This document shows positions 975 to 50,552 of a DNA stretch of 50,552 bases, piece by piece. The translations under genes were made by a program, and so were the position numbers. This DNA is from Clostridia bacterium. Lineage in GTDB: Bacteria > Bacillota > Clostridia > Christensenellales > CAG-917. The DNA lies in contig JAQUST010000001.1 of assembly GCA_028710495.1 (NCBI GenBank), positions 169,853 through 220,404 of the forward strand, written 5' to 3'. The notes beneath the pieces are model-generated. The model ran no database searches. It saw only the letters and a list, made by a program, of their open reading frames with translations, and had not been told where the DNA came from. Every line of letters starts with the position of its first letter. Within the stretch, counting starts at the first letter, position 1.

Positions 975-1997
975 TCAATAATATCTATTTGTTGATGAAC
1001 TTTTTGCCTTAAGCACGCTCATAAGTTTATCGTAATAGTTGCCAAGATAAAACTTCATATTTGGACTTGCAGCTAGCGCATCAGCAGATATATCGGGCGA
1101 AAGTGAATTGTAGAAGTCGAGCGCCAAAGTATAGCGCTCTGCATAATTTTTTTGTTTGTCTCCCGTGTAACCATAGGTTTCCTCTGCTTCTCGTTGCGCT
1201 TTGTTCTGTTCAGACTTTTCGGTTTCAAGTTCCGCAAGATATTCTTTTATGCTTTTGGCGCGCTCTGATGAATACGCTGTTTCTTGCTTTGAAATATCAT
1301 CATTGTACTTTTGATACTGCAACGCTGTCGCATCTCTTTCCTTTTGCAATTTTGCAATTTTTGTCGCAACTTCGCTTGCGTGAGTCAAATCAAGTTCATT
1401 TAATGCGCTATCTTTTTCGGCTTCAAGGTCAATCAATTTCTGGTTTACATCAGCGATTTGGTCAAGAAGTTCGGAATGCACAACAGTTGCCGAAGAAGTT
1501 TGTTTTTCATCGTATTCACCAATTTGTGAAGTAATGACCGATGAACGACCAAGCCCGCGTTTCAATGCATTTTTTTCTGCTTTATCCTTTAGACTTGAAT
1601 AAAGCTCATCAAGCTCAGCAAGACTATTTTCCGCATCTTGCGTCAATGTGTCTTTTGAAGCAGAAACATTGTCTTTCTGCGTTGATATCTCTTTTTGAAT
1701 CGCACTTTTTTGATTTTCTAGCGATGACATCAATTCTGCTTCAGCCTGCTGTTTAAGCTCCTCATCAGATTTTGCGTCATAATCTATTTTGCTTAATCCA
1801 AGTGAAGATGGAAAAAGGCTTTCAAGGTCAACTTCGCTACTCTTCGGCAAACTTGACTGATATTGTTTTTCAAGTTCTTGTAGTTTGCTTGTCAGTGAAC
1901 TTTCGTTTTTTATGGCATCGTTGATTTTGTTCGCCTTCTCTTCCTCGCGCTGTTGATTTGTTTGAAACAATTTTTTGAATTCATCCCAAAATGACAT
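975..1997 (-). CDS. Phage coiled-coil structural protein (unknown role; tail/needle/ejection candidate)
   Basis: 340-aa ORF, long coiled coil, ALKRGLGRSS motif, in the phage operon after the connector genes. Confidence 0.5.
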   Translation of the reverse strand: MSFWDEFKKLFQTNQQREEEKANKINDAIKNESSLTSKLQELEKQYQSSLPKSSEVDLESLFPSSLGLSKIDYDAKSDEELKQQAEAELMSSLENQKSAIQKEISTQKDNVSASKDTLTQDAENSLAELDELYSSLKDKAEKNALKRGLGRSSVITSQIGEYDEKQTSSATVVHSELLDQIADVNQKLIDLEAEKDSALNELDLTHASEVATKIAKLQKERDATALQYQKYNDDISKQETAYSSERAKSIKEYLAELETEKSEQNKAQREAEETYGYTGDKQKNYAERYTLALDFYNSLSPDISADALAASPNMKFYLGNYYDKLMSVLKAKSSSTNRYY

Positions 1998-2005
1998 ATT
2001 TCCTC

Positions 2006-2155
2006 CTACTGCAGTTCTGCCAAAACAAGTTCTATTGCATCAATTTCAGCAGACATAGACGTTATGGCGATTTGCATTTGATTGATTTTGAGTTCAAGCG
2101 TCAAAATCCTTTTGTTTAGTTGTTCTATAAGTGTCAAAAATTCTTTCGGATTCAT
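2006..2155 (-). CDS. Small coiled-coil phage protein (49 aa)
   Basis: MNPKEFLTLIEQLNKRILTLELKINQMQIAITSMSAEIDAIELVLAELQ; fills the gap between neighbouring late genes; below the supplied ORF length cutoff. Confidence 0.5.
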   Translation of the reverse strand: MNPKEFLTLIEQLNKRILTLELKINQMQIAITSMSAEIDAIELVLAELQ

Positions 2156-2163
2156 ATCACACC

Positions 2164-3615
2164 TCACAAAATTAAATCGAGTATAACTATAGGTGGTGTC
2201 AACTCGATGTCTTCTGCGGTGCTATTGATATAAAATCCAATAGAATATCCCGCCTTGCCCACAATGACTTTTTGAGGAAGAGTCGAACCTTCAACTTCAT
2301 ACTCAAAGCTCTGACCATCAACTATCACTCCAATCACAATATTAGCAGATGTTGTAAGTTGCATCTCACGCACCACTTTTTTACGCTCTGAAGTTAGATC
2401 GTTCACAGGACTTTCCCAATGCTTTGAAGTTGGATTTGTAAGTATTTTCCCTTTCGTATCAACTGAACCCATAAATCTTGTCGCCCCGCTGCCAAATACA
2501 GCTAAAACTCCAACATTGTGATGTACATTGACTGAAATCAGATGCACGATATCTGCACCCAACAAAATCGAAAACATCTTTGTCGAAGTGTCATATTCAA
2601 CGAGTGCGTTATTTATGCAACTGGTATTAGTTTCTGTGACATAATCCGAGATGCGACACGCGAGGTAGTATTTGCCCAAGCTGCAAGTGCCAACTGCTTT
2701 GCTTTTCTGCTCAAGTTCAGGCAAATCAGTCACAATCCTTGCGACATCGTAGCCGTCAAAAATGTAAAGTCCGTCATCAGCCATGAAAATGATTTTATCG
2801 CCATATTGAGCTATTGTGTTTCCAAAAATTTTACCCGTGTCAACATACACCTTTGACAAACTAAACTCAGTTTGATCGGCATATGCTATAAGTCTGAAAA
2901 TTCCGTGTTCACGAAAAACATAAACATAATCTAAAAAACTTACCACTTTCAAAACATCGCCGCACTCATCGGCAAAAGTAATGAAACCGCCATTTTCCAG
3001 ACTTACATCCCAATTTGTCGGATTAAAATCATCTGAGAACCAAACCGAATTTTTCCTCGTGCTGTCCGTTGCGAAAATGCGCTCATAATGAACACACATT
3101 GACGAAAACCGCGGTGCAGAGGGCACTGTCGAAATGCTTGCATCGTTTATTATCACTAAATCATTATTTGGTGAACATAGAAGCAAGCAGTCGTTGCTGT
3201 TGTAGTTATAATTCACTGCACAGCCTTTGCCTGAAAAGCTGACATCATTGACAACCGCCCATCCGTCATTTGTGAACATCTTTGTTTGATAAAGCAAATT
3301 CTCGTCGGTCTGAGCAATAATTCTGTCATCATAGCTTCCATCTTCGTTTGTGCGGTTGTAAACATATGCGTTCACAATGTTCACCCCCGAAGGCATTGGT
3401 TGGTAAGCATGTCTAAGATCGTTTTCAACCGAATAGCAGGAATCACCATAACGAAGCCCTAAATCTGATTTGAGAATTCCTCCTCGAAACGCGAAACCAT
3501 AGCAATTTGGAGAATAAGCAAATGATAACAGTTTGTCGTTCTCGGTGTTCTTTATGCCATTGAAAGCGGTCTTAAGACGGGTACGACTAGTGGGTATACT
3601 TTTTGCCTTACTCAC
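2164..3615 (-). CDS. Phage beta-propeller-like connector/DNA-stabilisation protein (P22 gp10-like position)
   Basis: Repeated beta-rich segments (YGDKIIFMADDGLYIFDGYDV, VYVFREHGIFRLI); GTG start overlaps the upstream stop (ATGTGA) with RBS aaaggaggtgg. Confidence 0.6.
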   Translation of the reverse strand: MSKAKSIPTSRTRLKTAFNGIKNTENDKLLSFAYSPNCYGFAFRGGILKSDLGLRYGDSCYSVENDLRHAYQPMPSGVNIVNAYVYNRTNEDGSYDDRIIAQTDENLLYQTKMFTNDGWAVVNDVSFSGKGCAVNYNYNSNDCLLLCSPNNDLVIINDASISTVPSAPRFSSMCVHYERIFATDSTRKNSVWFSDDFNPTNWDVSLENGGFITFADECGDVLKVVSFLDYVYVFREHGIFRLIAYADQTEFSLSKVYVDTGKIFGNTIAQYGDKIIFMADDGLYIFDGYDVARIVTDLPELEQKSKAVGTCSLGKYYLACRISDYVTETNTSCINNALVEYDTSTKMFSILLGADIVHLISVNVHHNVGVLAVFGSGATRFMGSVDTKGKILTNPTSKHWESPVNDLTSERKKVVREMQLTTSANIVIGVIVDGQSFEYEVEGSTLPQKVIVGKAGYSIGFYINSTAEDIELTPPIVILDLIL

Positions 3616-4157
3616 ATTCCCCACCTCCTTTCTTTGACTTTTATTTCTCTGCCTTTGGTCGAAACCCACGATAAGTCTTTTCGAAATTTTGTATCATAGG
3701 CAGCAGCCAAATCAAAAACGCTGTCTAAAAAATAATATTCTCCGATAACTCCATCCGAGAGTAGTCCACCTGTCAAACGGTAGTCATCAATAGATGATGA
3801 AATATTTAATGTTGCAGGAAGATAGTTGTAGGTGAGAGTTGCCTCACCAATAAAATCACTTTCGATTCCAGATGGTAAAGTGACAAAAACTATGTTTTTT
3901 CCATTATTTTCAAGAGAAATAGGTTTGATAAGACGATTTGAAAGTGTAGAATAATTCAACACCGCACCATCAAGCGTAACGCTCTCAGAAAAAGTCAATG
4001 GAAAATAATCACTTGCTACTTCTTGATAAATTAGGTTAAGACAATCTAGCAAGCGACTCACCAGCGCATTTTGCACTGAGGTATAAGTTGCTTCATCCAA
4101 AAAATCGGCGATACTCAGCTTTTTCAAGCAATCGCGCAATATATCTTTCACTTGCAT
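3612..4157 (-). CDS. Phage head-tail connector/adaptor-like protein (P22 gp4-like position)
   Basis: 181 aa; position between capsid and beta-propeller protein. Confidence 0.5.
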   Translation of the reverse strand: MQVKDILRDCLKKLSIADFLDEATYTSVQNALVSRLLDCLNLIYQEVASDYFPLTFSESVTLDGAVLNYSTLSNRLIKPISLENNGKNIVFVTLPSGIESDFIGEATLTYNYLPATLNISSSIDDYRLTGGLLSDGVIGEYYFLDSVFDLAAAYDTKFRKDLSWVSTKGREIKVKERRWGM

Positions 4158-4462
4158 ATTTGTTCCTCATAGGCAATGAGTGCCTTCTCAATGATTTTTT
4201 GTCGTTGTTCTTCCTCAATTCTTGCATTTGTATTTTCGATTTCCTCAATTAGTTGCTTTCTGTTTGACAAGCGTGTCTTTCTGACATGCACAAGTGTTCT
4301 CACATCTAAAAAAGTATACGGAACAACGACTTCAAGACCGGCTCGCGAATAAATTTCATAGCGTTTATGGTCTGTGTTGAAAAATAGCCTGTAATTTTCA
4401 TCGATTTCTCGAAGTCGACAGGCTATATCAAATACATCTTCTTTTATTTCTATCAAATTCAT
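4148..4462 (-). CDS. Hypothetical phage protein
   Basis: 104-aa ORF in phage operon, charged C-terminal helix. Confidence 0.6.
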   Translation of the reverse strand: MNLIEIKEDVFDIACRLREIDENYRLFFNTDHKRYEIYSRAGLEVVVPYTFLDVRTLVHVRKTRLSNRKQLIEEIENTNARIEEEQRQKIIEKALIAYEEQICK

Positions 4463-4473
4463 ATTTTCCTATT

Positions 4474-4505
4474 AAAAGACCTGCAAGGAAATCTTGCAAG
4501 TCTTA
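4474..4505 (-). terminator. Hairpin/attenuating terminator downstream of capsid gene
   Basis: Minus strand aagacttgcaagatttccttgcaggtcttttaa stem-loop plus T-run, between capsid gene and downstream late genes. Confidence 0.6.
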
Positions 4506-4610
4506 GATTTTAGTCAAAAACAGTGCGGCAAACTCAAAATCAGAATTTGCCGCTTTTCCGTTTTATTTAATTAAAAAACCGCGAAAGTTCAAATTTTTCT
4601 TACAGAAAAC

Positions 4611-5999
4611 TTAACCTTCTACCCATACTGCTGTGAGCGTAACATCTGCATTGATAGTGCGTGTTAAGAAGTTGAAGTTTGCTCCGTTTTGATACCATTC
4701 AACAAATGTAAAGCCTGACTTTACAGGTGTGACAGGTTTTGTTGCAAGTTTACCCGCTTCGACTATTTGGCTTGCGATTTCAGTTCCGCCATCTGTATCA
4801 AATGTAACAATATAGTTTTCAGATGTAGTCAAATTATCAAATGTAAGCTTTGCTTGTCCCATTGGACGCTCACAAAGTAAATCGGCATATTTGACAAGTG
4901 TTGCGGTGTAAACAGGTTTATCTGCAACCTGATGCAATACAGTGCCACCTTCGCCCTCAAGCCAACGCCAGTCACAAAGCTGATGGAATTTGAAGTCTTG
5001 TGAATTGAGAAGGTACATTGTTTTGTCAGCAACAAATCTGTCTGCAACAAACGGAATACCAGAGTATGATATAGCCTTAAATCCGCCGTCAAGATTCATA
5101 TAATCAAGGTTTGTGCGATTTGCGCCAAGGTTGTCAATGTATGCGCGTCTGACATCATATGATGAAACAATAAAGTCAACAACACTACCTGCGACTTCTT
5201 CAATATTGTCAATGGCATTTTGAATCGCGTTGCCATAAACGCCGGAGGTAATTGACTTGCTGTATGGTGTCAAGAATGAATAATCCGTTCTTGTCAATCC
5301 GTAAATGCTTGAACTGTCTCCAAACAAAGCTTCAAGACCGGTCATTTCATTTCCCTTTGAACCTTGAATGTAAATCACATAGCCTTCACCAAGTGCAGAA
5401 GCGGCTGCTGCCGAGAACTTAATCACGTTGGTTGTGCGATTGATTGATACGATTTTGACGCCAGTCAAGTTGGTTACGATTGTACCGTCGCTTGCATACA
5501 CATCAACAATCATACCTTCCATAAGGTTGCGAACGCTGTCAACAGTCAGTTCGTAGAAAGAAGCGCTGACATTTTCAACTGAAGTTGCAAGCAAGCCTGT
5601 GCCGTCACCGTAAAGCATTCTTCCAAAATTGAATTTACTCGCTTTGAGCAATCCGTCCATTTCAGCATTCAAAAGGTTGACAAATGCTCCCGCTGAATTT
5701 TGAGAAGCACGCACCGCCTTATCTGAAATTTCGATTTTTCCAAAAAAGTTCTTGAGATCAAGTTTGAATTGCGCATAGTTGTTTCCTGCACAAGCCGGGA
5801 GCACACCGTCTTCTGTTCCTGACCCAACCCCACCATTCATTCCATATGGAGCAAGCTTGACTATTTCCTTTCCCCATACATCTGCTGTGGTATGTTGTAT
5901 TTTTGCCAACAATGGATTGATACCAATGTTTAGTTGCTCTGCCAAAACACCAAGATATAAGGTTTTTAGCGCTTTATCAGCTGTTGTAAAATTTACCAT
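4611..5999 (-). CDS. Phage major capsid protein with C-terminal InlB-B/Flg_new-type repeat domain
   Basis: 462 aa; position after scaffold; C-terminus YIVTFDTDGGTEIASQIVEAGKLATKPVTPVKSGFTFVEWYQNGANFNFLTRTINADVTLTAVW matches the Listeria-Bacteroides repeat consensus. Confidence 0.75.
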   Translation of the reverse strand: MVNFTTADKALKTLYLGVLAEQLNIGINPLLAKIQHTTADVWGKEIVKLAPYGMNGGVGSGTEDGVLPACAGNNYAQFKLDLKNFFGKIEISDKAVRASQNSAGAFVNLLNAEMDGLLKASKFNFGRMLYGDGTGLLATSVENVSASFYELTVDSVRNLMEGMIVDVYASDGTIVTNLTGVKIVSINRTTNVIKFSAAAASALGEGYVIYIQGSKGNEMTGLEALFGDSSSIYGLTRTDYSFLTPYSKSITSGVYGNAIQNAIDNIEEVAGSVVDFIVSSYDVRRAYIDNLGANRTNLDYMNLDGGFKAISYSGIPFVADRFVADKTMYLLNSQDFKFHQLCDWRWLEGEGGTVLHQVADKPVYTATLVKYADLLCERPMGQAKLTFDNLTTSENYIVTFDTDGGTEIASQIVEAGKLATKPVTPVKSGFTFVEWYQNGANFNFLTRTINADVTLTAVWVEG

Positions 6000-6013
6000 A
6001 AATTTTTCTCCTA

Positions 6014-6934
6014 TTATTTATTATCTCTGACAAACATCCATCCTGCTTCTTGCAAAGACTTCGGTCTAGATGGCGGTGTCAGCGTTGTTACACCCGAACT
6101 TTTTATTGTCGCAGGCGTTTTTTTCTGGCTCAAACCAGTGAGATAATCCTCAATTACTCGAGACTTTATTTCCTCATTTGAAAACACATATTTCGATAAA
6201 AACTCATCGTTTTGCGCAAGCTCATTCGGCGACTTATAACTCTTGACCAAAAATCTCGAAAAAGCTATTTCAAGACCGTTTTTGTCATTTTTGAGGCTGT
6301 CATCCGAAATCATTTCGCGCGCGATTTGTTTTGCAAATGGTTGAGCTTTGGGGTTCAGTAAAAAGAACTTATCCACTTTCTCTTTCCATTCGCTTTCATC
6401 TGTATTTATTGGATTTTGAGTTTCAATGTCCGTATCGTCTTCGCAACAACTTTCGTTTTCACAAATACTTTCGTATTCGCTGCTACTTTCGTTTTTACTC
6501 GAGCTTATATCGGCATTGTTTTCTTCACTTTCCGCGTTTTCATCAAAAGTAATCTCGCTTAGCTCAAATTTTTTCTCTTGAGTATTCAGAATTTCTTCAA
6601 AATCAGATTTATTTTCATAGGTAGCCTGTGCGTCGAATGCAGAGATTGCATCTTGATTAGTGTTTGGTTGTTCGGTTTTCTTTCCGTCAATCTCTCCTGA
6701 ACTGTTATCAAAAGTTTTTTCACCTTCCTCACTATGGCTCTTTTTATCGGCAGCTTGATTGCTCCGTTTTTCCATATCGGCGAGTCTTTGTGAGCGCCTG
6801 GTGAATTCCGCTTCCAATGCATTGTAGGCTTTGAGAAGTTCTTCTGCGTTTTTGAATTTTCCTATCTCTACGGTTGATTTATTGTCTTCCCTTATTGCTG
6901 ACAGGGTTTGGACATCCAGTACTTTTTCTTCCAT
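6014..6934 (-). CDS. Phage scaffolding protein (acidic)
   Basis: Between portal and capsid; highly acidic Glu/Ser-rich centre; start KNAEELLKAYNALEAEFTRRSQRL typical of capsid assembly scaffolds. Confidence 0.65.
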   Translation of the reverse strand: MEEKVLDVQTLSAIREDNKSTVEIGKFKNAEELLKAYNALEAEFTRRSQRLADMEKRSNQAADKKSHSEEGEKTFDNSSGEIDGKKTEQPNTNQDAISAFDAQATYENKSDFEEILNTQEKKFELSEITFDENAESEENNADISSSKNESSSEYESICENESCCEDDTDIETQNPINTDESEWKEKVDKFFLLNPKAQPFAKQIAREMISDDSLKNDKNGLEIAFSRFLVKSYKSPNELAQNDEFLSKYVFSNEEIKSRVIEDYLTGLSQKKTPATIKSSGVTTLTPPSRPKSLQEAGWMFVRDNK

Positions 6935-6946
6935 AACACTCCTTCA

Positions 6947-8818
6947 CTATTTGATAGAGTCCATTTTTTCTTCCAAACTCAACATTTGCGTGCTGAGATT
7001 TTGAAGTTCCTTGTGACTGTTTATATGTTCAAGCACTCTTGCTTTCAATTTGGCGTTTTCGCTCACGGACTTTGTTATGAGCATTTTTGTGTGTTCATCA
7101 ATATGTAATGAGTGCTTATCCACCGAATCAGGAACAACTGATTTCTTGATGAGGTCATTGTTTTCTCTCTGAGCTTTTTTCAAATGAAGCTCATCGATGT
7201 CACGGCTGTCTTCCCAGTTCCCGAATCCCAAGAGGTCAAATATTCTAGTTTTTGTTCGTGCGGTCAACATACCGTTGTCATCAGACAACAATCCCATATT
7301 CAAAAGTTCTAAAAGCATAGATTTGCGTCCTGCAGTTGTGTCTTCAAGCTCATTTGCAGTATCAAACACGAGATCATCATTGGTGAGGTCATTCGCACAG
7401 AATGCCCTCATTTCAACATCGCCGTTTTCACCCGCAATACGCTTTATGCGTGTTGATGTAGCAAACTGCTTGTACAATCTGAGAATATGTCTGCCCACTT
7501 CACGAACACACGCACGAAGACTGTCTGAAGTCAACGAAATTCTTGTATCGTCCTGCTCAAGTAAAAGCGATATTGCCGAACCACTTGACACATTTGACGG
7601 AACTTGAGAGTAAGTTGTGACCTCACTAACTCCGCTTATCATTATAAATTCAGATAGAAGGCGTTCTTCTTCAATATGGAAATCTGACGGAACTTGCCCG
7701 GCATTAAGCATCATTGGAGGTGTTGAACCTTGTCTATAAATCAATACCTTTCCGGGTGAGAGTCCCTCTTCTTCAAGATTGTCCGTATCGACAGAGCCAT
7801 CTTCAACAGCAAGCACACCCATAGCAATGCGGTTCATAAATTCGTGTTTACGGTTTTTTACGGTATTGTAAGCTCGCTGAACAGGTATAATTCGCTCAAT
7901 AATACTAGTACCGAAAAATCCACCAATAGTATCAAGGCACACCTGTTTGCAAAATGGATATCCTCGTTTTTCGTTTTCACTGTTCATATATGGTAAATCG
8001 CCTTCATACAGCAATTCATCCCCGCCAATAATAATCAACCTGCCATTCGGATATTCAGTTGTTGGCAATTCATATTTTTCTATGACCACAACTGCATCGT
8101 CTTTTTGCTCCGAGTTGACCTCAGGAACAGTTGCGTTGTATCCCAGACCTCCTGCAACAGTCGCATTGTCAAGAGAGAAAACGCTTACACTTGTTCCTTT
8201 GACATCTTTGCCCCAGAATCTTTTTACTTCATCCGTCGAATAAGCTTTCGCATGAATGATAGAACTTTGGGCATGCAATTCAGAAACAGCGAGATTTTCA
8301 GGGAAAAATTCAAAAGGCGGAATAACTGATATAGAAACATCCCCTTCATGCACGGTATTTTGCGAATCCAAAACACGCCCTTTTTCGCTGTCCCAAACAA
8401 TTTTGTAAAACACTGTGCCTGTCGCCTCACTCCACATATTGGCTTGAGTCATAAGCTCATTCCATTTGTTTTCTGCGCAAATAGATTCAAGCAATGCTGT
8501 CGAAAATTTGGCTGATGCTACATCAATATCGTCAGAAGTTGACGGTCTGACACTCACCTTTGCCTTGACTCTCGCCAGCTTAGACAGCCTTGTTTCAATA
8601 ATTGGTGCAATGTGATTGTAAACTTCTCGCTGTTGCCAAAAATACTGTTTACCGTCCTCTTCAATGTCACCGCGGTTTGAAATTGAGCAATATTGGTTTC
8701 CCACAAGAAAATTCATATTCAATCGCCACGACAACTCAAGCGGTCGGCGAGCTTCTCTTCGTCGCTCAAAATCCTCCTTCACACTTGCAACAAGTTCTTC
8801 AGCAATCTTTTGATTCAT
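6947..8818 (-). CDS. Phage portal protein (P22-like)
   Basis: 623 aa; NFLVGNQY...REVYNHIAPIIETRLSKLARVKAKVSVRPS and IPVQRAYNTVKNRKHEFMNRI segments typical of P22-like portals. Confidence 0.8.
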   Translation of the reverse strand: MNQKIAEELVASVKEDFERRREARRPLELSWRLNMNFLVGNQYCSISNRGDIEEDGKQYFWQQREVYNHIAPIIETRLSKLARVKAKVSVRPSTSDDIDVASAKFSTALLESICAENKWNELMTQANMWSEATGTVFYKIVWDSEKGRVLDSQNTVHEGDVSISVIPPFEFFPENLAVSELHAQSSIIHAKAYSTDEVKRFWGKDVKGTSVSVFSLDNATVAGGLGYNATVPEVNSEQKDDAVVVIEKYELPTTEYPNGRLIIIGGDELLYEGDLPYMNSENEKRGYPFCKQVCLDTIGGFFGTSIIERIIPVQRAYNTVKNRKHEFMNRIAMGVLAVEDGSVDTDNLEEEGLSPGKVLIYRQGSTPPMMLNAGQVPSDFHIEEERLLSEFIMISGVSEVTTYSQVPSNVSSGSAISLLLEQDDTRISLTSDSLRACVREVGRHILRLYKQFATSTRIKRIAGENGDVEMRAFCANDLTNDDLVFDTANELEDTTAGRKSMLLELLNMGLLSDDNGMLTARTKTRIFDLLGFGNWEDSRDIDELHLKKAQRENNDLIKKSVVPDSVDKHSLHIDEHTKMLITKSVSENAKLKARVLEHINSHKELQNLSTQMLSLEEKMDSIK

Positions 8819-9135
8819 TTTCTACCTCTCTTTGTTCGAAAACTCGAACGCTTGATTATTGGACTCTCGACATTTTTTTTGTTCTGTTGGTCAAAATCTA
8901 CAGACTTATCTTCATTTTGAATTTGAAAGTCTTCAATTCTTTTTATCGTGCTGTTGTTTGTCGCACGCATTATCATATTTGGAATCCCTTTTGGAACAAG
9001 CAATCGCCCAATTTTCTGATACAATTCTTTTGTGCAATGTTCACACATAAGCAGCGTTTCATCGTGGACTTTCACCATATAATCAAAACCCTCATCACAA
9101 AAATCGCATGAATCACTGTGACTTCCATTTTTCAT
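8815..9135 (-). CDS. Small zinc-ribbon phage protein
   Basis: Paired CxxC motifs (CDFC...CEHC) in a 106-aa ORF inside phage cluster. Confidence 0.6.
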   Translation of the reverse strand: MKNGSHSDSCDFCDEGFDYMVKVHDETLLMCEHCTKELYQKIGRLLVPKGIPNMIMRATNNSTIKRIEDFQIQNEDKSVDFDQQNKKNVESPIIKRSSFRTKRGRK

Positions 9136-9158
9136 TTCGCATCTCCTTTCTTTGCAAA

Positions 9159-9479
9159 CTAGCTATGTTTTTTTGTATTCGCCGCCTTGTCAGGTTCTTT
9201 TGCTTTGCGTTTTTTTGCTTCATTTTTCTTTAATTGTTCCAGTAATCGGCATTTTTCTTTTTCTAATTCTTCATCGGTTAGTCCACATACATCATTGTTT
9301 TGCGACAACTCCATATAGGATTTGAGAGCGCTGCTGTCGGGTGGATAGTGTTTCGTGGTTACTTTCCTCTTTGCCAATTCTGCAACACCATCTTCTTTAA
9401 CAATAAATTCCTCCACCACCTCATCAAAGGTATATCCAGTTGCCTTTTTAAGCAGTGTTTTCATAATTTCTTCGTCCAT
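9159..9479 (-). CDS. Short terminase-small-subunit-like protein, apparently without the N-terminal HTH
   Basis: LLKKATGYTFDEVVEEFI...KRKVTTKHYPPDSSALKSYMEL resembles the conserved C-terminal region of many Firmicutes TerS proteins; RBS aaggtgg before ATG at 9479. Confidence 0.5.
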   Translation of the reverse strand: MDEEIMKTLLKKATGYTFDEVVEEFIVKEDGVAELAKRKVTTKHYPPDSSALKSYMELSQNNDVCGLTDEELEKEKCRLLEQLKKNEAKKRKAKEPDKAANTKKHS

Positions 9480-9607
9480 AATCACCACCTTGCCATGTTG
9501 TTGCTATTCATATAAATTGACTTATTAGAAATTCCGTTGTACAAATTGAAAAAAACTTTATTTTTTGTTCTTATCTCGCCTTATCATTTTGCAAGTAAAT
9601 TCTTTTT

Positions 9608-11032
9608 CTAATTAAAATTTCGCCTCAACTCGCGAAAGAGTTTTTCCTTGTCACGGGCAATTGCACTTTTTTCTAGTGTTTTCGCCTTTGCTGCTTCTGG
9701 TTGTGACATAACAAAATATCTAAATTCATCAAGTGAATGGTCATCAGCTTTTTTGGGTCTATCTCCATCTCCCCACCAATAGCTTTTTAGCTCGCGAATA
9801 AGGTTTACGCAGTTTTTGAAGATGAATATTTTTTGCGGTGACGCATTAAATAGTTCTTTTATTCTTGCAATACCGCTGAACATATCCTTGTTTACTCTTG
9901 TGTTAACCAAAATTCCTTTCGAACAAAAGAGTTCGGAAACGCTTTTTGAGCTTGCAAGCGTACGCTGTGAAGCCGCCGAATCAATAAGTGCGTGCAGTCG
10001 CCCACTGCTGTCGCGGTGCCAGCCCAATTTGTCTGCAAGCTCAAAAATCCTTTCCGAGTGCCAGTCAACATCCTTACCTTTGGCATAGTGTTCGCCAACC
10101 ACATATATATTTCCATCAAAATCCACAGCATAAAAATGACAGCTTGTCGGGTTATTCAGTCCGGGGTCAATAGAAATATTTGATTGCCATTCAAATGGAA
10201 TATCAAAAGGTTCAATAATATGTTTTGCAGGGTCAAATTCCGGATACACAAGCCCGGTATTTTCGTGAAACCGTCCGAATCTTCTTGTTTCTTGAGAATC
10301 TTCTGAAGTCGACTTCAGTAAAAGCTCGATTTCATCCTTTGGAAGATACGGGTTGTCCGCCCATTCAATATGTTCACACCAAACCTCAGGATTGTCGAAG
10401 CAGTTGAGCTCAATCTCGTCATAAACCCAGCTCAAACCCTTAAGAGGCGTCATTGTTCCAAAAATATTGCCCGCCTTGTCAAAAACGCGCATTCTGCATT
10501 CATCGTAAATATCCTTTGGCGGTTCTTCATCAAACCAAACAAAATCGAGCGAAGCTCCTTGAAACTTTTCGCGTCCTTGGTCAGCTGATTTGAAACCGAT
10601 TTTAGACAAACCGCCAAAAGAGTTTTTTACGATAATGTGGTCAATAATACCGTATTCAGGCGAACCTTTGCGACCACTTTGCATTACGATATCTTCAATA
10701 TACCGTGGAGAGAGATACTTTAAGATTTTTGCTTGTGCAACATCCCGTTGCACCTCATATGTCACACTGACAATCCAGCCAAAAACATTATCTCGGTTTT
10801 CTCGAAAAGGATGAACTCCTCTTGCCATCCAAACCGCTTCCACCGCTCCGCATTCTGTTTTTCCGCTTCGGTTTCCACCAAACACCCAACGATTGCGAAA
10901 TTTTGATTGATGAAAAAGCATTTGCTTTTCGTGGACAATCGTACGATTGTAGCAAAAAAGCGCATCATGTGTGCGCTTCTTCTGCTCTGCTTCAATATTC
11001 AAAATTTTAGTTATTGTCTCTTTTTCATCCAT
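9608..11032 (-). CDS. Phage terminase large subunit (ORF can extend to 11062)
   Basis: NRWVFGGNRSGKTECGAVEAVWMA Walker A; LDFVWFDEEPP Walker B; nuclease-domain segment DPGLNNPTSCHFYAVD. Confidence 0.9.
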   Translation of the reverse strand: MDEKETITKILNIEAEQKKRTHDALFCYNRTIVHEKQMLFHQSKFRNRWVFGGNRSGKTECGAVEAVWMARGVHPFRENRDNVFGWIVSVTYEVQRDVAQAKILKYLSPRYIEDIVMQSGRKGSPEYGIIDHIIVKNSFGGLSKIGFKSADQGREKFQGASLDFVWFDEEPPKDIYDECRMRVFDKAGNIFGTMTPLKGLSWVYDEIELNCFDNPEVWCEHIEWADNPYLPKDEIELLLKSTSEDSQETRRFGRFHENTGLVYPEFDPAKHIIEPFDIPFEWQSNISIDPGLNNPTSCHFYAVDFDGNIYVVGEHYAKGKDVDWHSERIFELADKLGWHRDSSGRLHALIDSAASQRTLASSKSVSELFCSKGILVNTRVNKDMFSGIARIKELFNASPQKIFIFKNCVNLIRELKSYWWGDGDRPKKADDHSLDEFRYFVMSQPEAAKAKTLEKSAIARDKEKLFRELRRNFN

Positions 11033-11093
11033 TGCCAACACAATAGCATCATAAAAACGCAAACCGCATACAATTATGACAAAAACATATCAT

Positions 11094-28097: not shown

Positions 28098-28115
28098 CGT
28101 TTTATTAAAATATTC

Positions 28116-28239
28116 TTTGGGCAGGGTTGAATACCCGACCGGTGGTGATGCCGTTTTATACGGACAAGTCCAACAGCCCCAACAGCCGATGCGGTTAGAA
28201 TCCGCAACCGCCTGTAAAGTCAGCATGGGAGAGAGTAGC
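28116..28239 (+). ncRNA. FMN riboswitch (RFN element)
   Basis: gggcagggttgaataCCCGACCGGTGGTgatgcc...agccgatgcggttagaatccgcaaccgcc...agcatgggagagagta matches the RFN consensus blocks. Confidence 0.93.
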
Positions 28240-28264
28240 ATTATTGCACAACAGTGCTTTTTTT
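28236..28264 (+). terminator. Riboswitch expression-platform terminator 1
   Basis: agcattattgcacaacagtgct followed by ttttttt. Confidence 0.6.
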
Positions 28265-28308: not shown

Positions 28309-28341
28309 CCATCTATCTTGTCCAAGAAAAAGGATAGCAGG

Positions 28342-28938
28342 ATGAAAATTCAAACAAGAACAATAGCATTTACCGCACTTATGACAGCGCTTGTCACCAT
28401 TTCGACAGCATTTTTGGGCGTAAATATGGGCACAACTTACACAAATCTAGGCGATACTATGATTTTTGTGACCGCTGCCCTTTTTGGACCAGTTCCAGCA
28501 ATGATAGCAGGTGGATTAGGTTCTTTTATTGCAGATATGATGGTTTTCCCAATGACGATGTGGTTCACTCTTGTCATTAAAGGCATTGAAGGACTAATTT
28601 GCGGATTTCTTATTCGCATATTTTCGAAACTGAATTTCAAAAAACCAATAGGAATTATATTGAATTTTATCGCTATGATAGCAGCGGGCATCTGGATGAT
28701 GGCAGGCTATTTTCTTGCAGAGAGTTTATTGTACGGGACACTTGCAGCCGCTGTTTTTGCACTTTCAGCAAATGCGGTGCAAGCAACATTATCAATAACA
28801 TGCGCTTTGATTTTGGTTTACGGTTTTAAGCTCTGCAAGATGAGCATTGATCTCAAAGTTTTCAAATCCACTCATTCTAAAAGCACCAAAACGAACTCGA
28901 GAGATACAAGTACCGAAACACCGCCGACAATAGAATAA
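28342..28938 (+). CDS. ECF transporter S component (probable flavin/precursor uptake, under FMN riboswitch)
   Basis: TYTNLGDTMIFVTAALFGPVPAMIAGGLGSFIADM typical of NLGD-type ECF S components; RBS aagga before ATG at 28342. Confidence 0.85.
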   Translation: MKIQTRTIAFTALMTALVTISTAFLGVNMGTTYTNLGDTMIFVTAALFGPVPAMIAGGLGSFIADMMVFPMTMWFTLVIKGIEGLICGFLIRIFSKLNFKKPIGIILNFIAMIAAGIWMMAGYFLAESLLYGTLAAAVFALSANAVQATLSITCALILVYGFKLCKMSIDLKVFKSTHSKSTKTNSRDTSTETPPTIE

Positions 28939-29008
28939 ATGAAGATTAAAGCATAATTTCTTCTGCTTTCAAAAAAAATTAACAAAGCGACAACATAGTT
29001 GACTTTTT

Positions 29009-29314
29009 TGGAGCTGTTACCGGGATTTGCTCCGTTTCGCTTTGCTTCACTATCACGCCGGGGCTACGACCCTTCTTCTGCCACTGGCAGCGGGTCTTGC
29101 CCGTTCAAATCCCTTTTTACCTTAGAAACAAAAATAGTCCCCACTTGGGGACTATTTTGGTTGGAGCTGTTACCGGGATTTGCTCCGTTTCGCTTTGCTT
29201 CACTATCACGCCGGGGCTACGACCCTTCTTCTGCCACTGGCAGCGGGTCTTGCCCGTTCAAATCCCTTTTTACCTTAGAAACAAAAATAGTCCCCACTTG
29301 GGGACTATTTTGGT
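29009..29314 (-). repeat. Two 153-bp tandem units downstream of tRNA-Thr, each with a copy of the tRNA 3' end plus a terminator
   Basis: tggagctgttaccgggattt at 29009, 29162 and 29315 (the real tRNA); identical spacer and aaaatagtccccacttggggactatttt terminator in each unit. Confidence 0.95.
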
Positions 29315-29390
29315 TGGAGCTGTTACCGGGATTTGAACCCGGGACCTCGTCCTTACCAAGGACGTGCTCTACCGACTGAGCCATAACAGC
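29315..29390 (-). tRNA. tRNA-Thr(GGT), CCA encoded
   Basis: GCTGTTATGGCTCAGTCGGTAGAGCACGTCCTTGGTAAGGACGAGGTCCCGGGTTCAAATCCCGGTAACAGCTCCA; cloverleaf, anticodon loop TTGGTAA. Confidence 0.97.
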
Positions 29391-50099: not shown

Positions 50100-50260
50100 A
50101 AAACAATTTAATAGTTTGGAGGATTGGCTGGTGGCGCTTGCGACACTTCCGGTGACGGACTCCAACGCCTACCCTCAGGAGCGGTGTAACCGCGAAGCTT
50201 TCGTAGCTTGGTAACGCAATATAAAATAGAAAACAATTTAATAGTTTGGAGGATTGGCTG
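50100..50260 (+). repeat. Direct repeat (130-bp period) of tRNA-Ser upstream sequence plus tRNA 5' end
   Basis: aaacaatttaatagtttggaggattggctg at about 50101 and about 50231; only the second continues into the tRNA. Confidence 0.9.
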
Positions 50261-50335
50261 AGCGGTTTAAAGCGGCGGTCTTGAAAACCGTTGATGTGAA
50301 AGCATCCGCAGGTTCGAATCCTGTGTCCTCCGCCA
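50248..50335 (+). tRNA. tRNA-Ser(TGA), CCA encoded
   Basis: ggaggattggctgagcggtttaaagcggcggtcttgaaaaccgttgatgtgaaagcatccgcaggttcgaatcctgtgtcctccgcca; class II tRNA with variable arm, anticodon loop CTTGAAA. Confidence 0.95.
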
Positions 50336-50552
50336 AAACAAAACCCACAACATAGTTTGTGGGTTTCTTATTATTTTCGGACACAGGAAAACGAAATCGT
50401 GCACGCTCACTTTGTTCGCTGAGAACGAATCCTGTGTCCTCCGCCAAAACAAAACCCACAACATAGTTTGTGGGTTTCTTATTATTTTCGGACACAGGAA
50501 AACGAAATCGTGCACGCTCACTTTGTTCGCTGAGAACGAATCCTGTGTCCTC
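50315..50552 (+). repeat. 111-bp tandem repeat downstream of tRNA-Ser with tRNA 3' end copies and terminators; runs off the window
   Basis: cgaatcctgtgtcctc starts at 50315, 50426 and 50537; aaacccacaacatagtttgtgggttt terminator in each full unit. Confidence 0.95.

Follow-up and report, generated by a model that had tools for sequence, protein, structure and literature searches.

Probable tRNA-linked repeats with a closing stem matched to the local tRNA in a Christensenellales-like lineage of Clostridia

Two tRNA genes in a 50,552-nucleotide stretch of a Clostridia genome (the window; G000:C35:169853-220404, in a genome of 1.57 Mb in 39 contigs) are followed by tandem repeats that each end in a copy of the tRNA 3' end and carry the inverted complement of that end ahead of it. 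This raises the question of what these units are: an RNA switch acting on the tRNA, a mobile element, a by-product of duplication, or a known kind of tRNA-associated repeat. We consider them, with a probability of about 0.65, to be tRNA-linked repeats (TLRs) undescribed from this lineage, that is, closing-helix modules kept matched to the local tRNA that would be transcribed as a read-through trailer.

The first array follows tRNA-Ser(TGA), called at 50248-50335 on the plus strand, whose tail from C56 in the T-loop to the CCA (CGAATCCTGTGTCCTCCGCCA) occupies 50315-50335. The stretch 50315-50552 repeats with a period of 111 and 100% matches. Unit 1 (50336-50446, 111 bp) is made up of a terminator-like hairpin, T1 (50341-50366), the anti-tail GGACACAGGA (50379-50388), which is the complement of TCCTGTGTCC, a core, and a closing copy of the tRNA-Ser tail (50426-50446). 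Unit 2 (50447-50552) repeats the hairpin at 50452-50477 and the anti-tail at 50490-50499, and is interrupted by a 100-N scaffold gap that lies within the array and forms the window's end. The array runs on past the window with 179-bp composite and degenerate units; there are at least four tandem units plus the degenerate ones, and TLR loci elsewhere have one to five. The pairing that the earlier note had read from this locus is exact: ggacacagga at 50379-50388 complements tcctgtgtcc both in the tRNA (50319-50328) and in the next copy (50430-50439). The 5' side of the same gene is also duplicated. A 31-nucleotide segment at 50100-50130 (plus strand) is identical to 50230-50260, which comprises the tRNA-Ser 5' flank and the first 13 nucleotides of the tRNA, and lies 130 bp upstream of it. 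At another locus (L019), tRNA-Pro(CGG) has similar head copies at distances of 152 and 304 bp on its upstream side, and these head copies appear to be the 5'-side counterpart of the 3' repeats.

The second array lies on the minus strand behind tRNA-Thr(GGT) (29315-29390 by tRNA call; tail 29315-29335). It spans 29008-29335 with a period of 153 and 100% matches and holds two units of 153 bp. Unit 1 (29162-29314) has its terminator-like hairpin at 29284-29311, its anti-tail GGGATTTGAAC at 29256-29266 and its tail copy at 29162-29182; in unit 2 (29009-29161) the same parts lie at 29131-29158, 29103-29113 and 29009-29029. The segments gggatttg (29022-29029) and caaatccc (29106-29113), also pointed out in the earlier note, are present and complementary, and the anti-tail extends to 11 nucleotides. 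Because the tRNA is on the minus strand, its tail reads as the reverse complement of gggatttg.

Both arrays, followed in the tRNA's direction, have the same order of parts: intrinsic terminator, anti-tail, hairpin-rich core and a 21-nucleotide tail copy spanning C56 to CCA. An intrinsic terminator stands ahead of every window unit, and a search of these units revealed no promoter-like site; hence any unit RNA would stem from read-through. The folds computed for single units are more stable than those of shuffled sequence (z -3.2 to -6.7). The helix between the tRNA-derived piece and the anti-segment that the earlier note had envisaged can form, and this closing-stem design recurs at many tRNAs. 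With anti-tail and tail copy paired as a closing helix, the module would amount to one self-contained hairpin unit. Elsewhere in this genome, tail copies of at least 13 nucleotides are found behind Leu-tag, Ser-cga and one Met tRNA besides Thr-ggt and Ser-tga, that is, behind 5 of the 35 tRNAs with enough downstream sequence, from 40 tRNAs in all; anti-tails are also seen at Leu-tag (GGACTCGAAC) and Ser-cga (AAGAGGTGGGATTCGAAC, 18 nucleotides). Several tRNAs of this genome lie at the edge of a contig, which is what repeats of this sort would produce by interrupting assembly.

Unit DNA of the window, searched in 30 relatives, gave matches confined to its own genome, and the class A pattern likewise matched only its own genome among 40. 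Three class A matches in viral contigs look like chance, with no tRNA there. In an Rfam scan of the window, only tRNA and an FMN riboswitch reached threshold, and weaker matches were judged to be chance. The riboswitch (28108-28240) precedes an ORF for a small membrane protein (28318-28938). At 975-11062 the window has ORFs that resemble phage genes for the head and for packaging (portal, capsid and terminase-like), probably a prophage as judged by eye.

The same layout recurs in related Clostridia, in Christensenellales-like assemblies that are MAGs of uncultured gut bacteria and contain gaps. Tail copies follow 9 of 37 and 5 of 39 tRNAs in two genomes from the family to which the window's genome belongs, 5 of 70 tRNAs in other families of the order, and none of 102 in a phylum-wide sample, the order and phylum samples being the best-scoring tRNAs and not random ones. 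The relatives have another core type in common, class B, seen at many different tRNAs and composed of TGACGC, hairpin 1, GCTATTCCGTC, hairpin 2 and TCCTTACGA, followed by the tail. A pattern for it gave 40 exact matches in 17 of 248 genomes (a reversed control pattern gave none), 91 stretches in a genome collection, nearly all from Clostridia or Christensenellaceae MAGs, and no match in viral contigs. With a covariance model, class B was detected in 24 of the 40 genomes of the family, at most 12 times in one genome, and in none of 150 genomes across the phylum under stricter filters; the model matches neither the window nor the E. coli TLRs. Neither pattern nor covariance-model searches found class B in the window's genome, so that class B lends support to the design and not to the window's cores. 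We dropped the notion of class A as an inverted class B, since the order of the hairpins does not fit. A third core type, beginning CTCGGCGTCCGCAAATGCTCC, is seen in the second unit behind Arg-ccg (L071, L105), with a tail copy of only 11 nucleotides.

These relatives allow one to ask whether both ends of the unit follow the tRNA beside which they lie. The tail copies of class B units agree with the local tRNA at a mean of 17.1 of 20 nucleotides and with other tRNAs at 5.3, and in 67 of 73 the agreement exceeds that of the best among 30 controls. As for the anti-tail, in 94 tail-copy units (all fetched loci, partly gathered by the class B pattern) the longest exact complement to the unit's own tRNA tail averages 7.5 nucleotides, against 5.5 for foreign tails (Wilcoxon p = 1.8e-10). 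In the Ser units, none of 60 tails from other tRNAs reached the value of the own tail. The duplex energy of the anti-tail is -14.8 with its own tail and -11.8 when swapped (p = 2.7e-6); by this measure no more than 24 of 86 class B units rank in the best 5%, and about two thirds have no clear advantage over foreign tails. The earlier note had suggested looking for compensatory change, and anti-tail and tail do change together. With a fixed register and no optimisation, the class B closing stem has 232 paired cells versus 180.6 for 1000 shuffles (181 +/- 6; sd 6.4), none of which exceeded 206, and the covariation score of 0.383 falls to 0.149 on shuffling and does not exceed 0.182 on sliding, for 22 sequences with hairpin loops removed and shuffles that ignore relatedness. 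Individual tRNAs compared between species illustrate this, both sides having changed in Thr-ggt (GGGATTTG/CAAATCCC versus GCTGCTAACCGG/CCGGTTAGCAGC), Tyr (GGGGTGGATTC versus GTGGGAAGTGGTGGA), Ser-tga (GGACACAGGA versus TGAGGGA) and also Leu-tag. Within the core, the HP2 hairpins are still Watson-Crick paired at 220 of 276 positions despite sequence change.

This anatomy has a close parallel in E. coli, one that the earlier note does not name. TLRs have been known there since 1978 (Egan and Landy 1978; Rudd 1999, as cited in PMC8144298), with no agreement on what they do. There are 22 of them at ten loci, the 3' 18-19 bp of each unit being equal to the end of the upstream tRNA or 5S RNA, and no function had been assigned until RrA, RrB and RrF were found to bind Hfq and CsrA; RrB sits between two terminators and is produced by read-through (PMC8144298). 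At MG1655 loci selected for comparison, we find tail copies of 18-19 nucleotides behind Tyr, Arg, Lys and Pro tRNAs and 5S, with anti-tails to the local tRNA at Tyr (GGGGAAGGAT), argV (GGGAGGAT) and lysT (GTGAAGGAT); the comparison labelled tyr1 is left out of account. Like the window units, the E. coli TLRs lie directly 3' of the tRNA, end as it does (18-19 bp there, about 20-21 here), occur as one to several tandem units, and combine a hairpin core with an anti-tail (there at Tyr, Arg and Lys). They differ in belonging to another phylum and in having cores unrelated at the level tested, E. coli TLR and window-type cores aligning poorly. Moreover, a terminator precedes every window unit but only some E. 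coli TLRs, and the anti-tail here is often longer and tRNA-specific. In RrA, RrB and RrF, which lie between the dual rRNA terminators, the copy is that of the 5S end, and no anti-tail was found at the 5S-linked copies of E. coli.

These known TLRs include the RtT RNA (RF00391; RttR of the tyrT operon), whose consensus structure includes a closing helix of anti-tail and tail copy, found here too. Its 3' end is at the tRNA-like CCA, and the RttR annotation likewise stops at the unit's CCA. Since RF00391 already includes this helix, the layout itself is known. The RF00391 covariance model left both the window and the Leu-tag locus (L049) unmatched up to E = 10, with E. coli controls at 133-138 bits. 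In the literature searched, we found no account of such repeats in Clostridia. What appears to be new here, on these comparisons, is the occurrence in a Christensenellales-like lineage, the unrelated cores, and the tracking of the tRNA by the anti-tail, tRNA by tRNA.

A stem selected as RNA tolerates G-U pairs and not A-C mismatches. The counts of G-U versus A-C are 21 versus 15 in the two hairpins, 1 versus 3 in all closing stems, and 2 versus 5 in the well-paired class B closing stems, these being small numbers. Without an excess of G-U over A-C, selection at the RNA level is not indicated, which leaves open that the units may be maintained at the DNA level. The suggestion that tRNA maturation is controlled by an anti-tail pairing in turn with the copy and with the tail of the tRNA itself draws on equilibrium folding of 24 precursors extending past T1: the mean probability of own-tail pairing is 0.46, against 0.09 for a shuffled anti-tail. 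The same folding, however, loses the native cloverleaf and acceptor stem even with shuffled anti-tails, so that its prediction of own-tail pairing is weak and decides nothing; and the anti-tail lies behind the terminator, where it would be made after the tRNA could fold. Hence, we regard such a switch, which the earlier note had proposed, as very improbable in general and as not supported for the window units. Equilibrium folding also gives no support to the anti-tail as a guard of the tRNA against misfolding. A PBS-like role for it in tRNA-primed reverse transcription was dropped because the last 7 nucleotides of the Ser tail (TCCGCCA) are unpaired and the 3' end could not prime.

Two further accounts were weighed. 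One is that the core is a non-autonomous mobile element of REP- or MITE-like kind that settles behind tRNAs and elsewhere, its ends being rebuilt from the target. The simpler form of this in the earlier note, a MITE with constant tRNA-derived ends, is unsupported: the ends vary from tRNA to tRNA and copy whichever is adjacent, and within the window's genome we found units only behind tRNAs, with the Ser unit confined to its own array. For class B there are points in favour of mobility. In two relatives, cores lie in dispersed repeats for which no neighbouring tRNA was found (G281 L294-L300, G006 L302-L304), the repeats of G281 being about 330 bp long with copies 77-99% identical; cores at least 75% alike lie at different tRNAs, each with a local stem; and in G185 a unit with its Arg tail kept and a core identical to the Arg-cct unit of L100 lies behind Glu-ctc (L114), which from its sequence appears to be a recent relocation. 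The lack of a G-U excess fits as well. Against this, orientation to the tRNA is constant in the units examined, viral contigs gave no class B matches, and the eight downstream genes scanned, a limited sample, belong to ordinary host families with no recombinase or integrase. The IS200/RAYT transposase (Y1, PF01797), carried by 8 of the 16 genomes that have three or more class B matches and by 4 of the other 24, was considered as the mover and is not supported, the association being confounded by genus and the enzyme not found in the unit carriers G000, G007, G034, G281 and G006. We therefore keep mobility as a rival on account of the dispersed cores away from tRNAs, while holding it to be unlikely. 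That class B in particular is a dispersing DNA module, both of whose ends would be rewritten from the tRNA behind which it arrives (the tail direct, the anti-tail inverted), seems more doubtful still; if true, it would be a mobile element with a terminal stem copied from its target.

The other account needs no function: tandem duplication of the tRNA tail and its flank would yield the repeats, and palindrome-correcting template switching would match the anti-tail. Variable copy number, assembly breaks at tRNA 3' ends, the degenerate 179-bp composite units, the many units that lack a good anti-tail and the missing wobble bias are all consistent with it. It accounts poorly for a class B core conserved across families strongly enough to give the exact matches noted above, for HP2 pairing kept through sequence change, and for a layout shared with E. 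coli; we find it somewhat unlikely, though it is the foremost of the alternatives.

The preferred reading, that of TLRs with a closing helix, is thus of a module behind the tRNA's own terminator that has an anti-tail, a structured core and the exact tRNA 3' end with its CCA, often in tandem. Its tail copies would be kept identical to the adjacent tRNA, most likely via unequal crossing-over or gene conversion between direct repeats, and the anti-tail would then follow, either by selection for a closed stem or by hairpin-templated correction. Unit RNA would be made only when the polymerase reads through the first terminator, and would presumably fold in the cell into a trailer with a tRNA-like 3' end; by analogy, this could resemble RttR and RrA/B/F of E. 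coli. As to its role, our best guess is a stable trailer RNA whose effect is minor, in preference to a switch. That this layout is found again in a distant phylum, where the cores are of several unrelated types but a copy of the local tRNA end is always present and a matching anti-tail often so, suggests that the shared element is the frame of tail and anti-tail. Beyond the possibility that such repeats may explain contig breaks at tRNA 3' ends in these MAGs, this would turn the frame from a local curiosity into a comparative system for testing function or concerted evolution.
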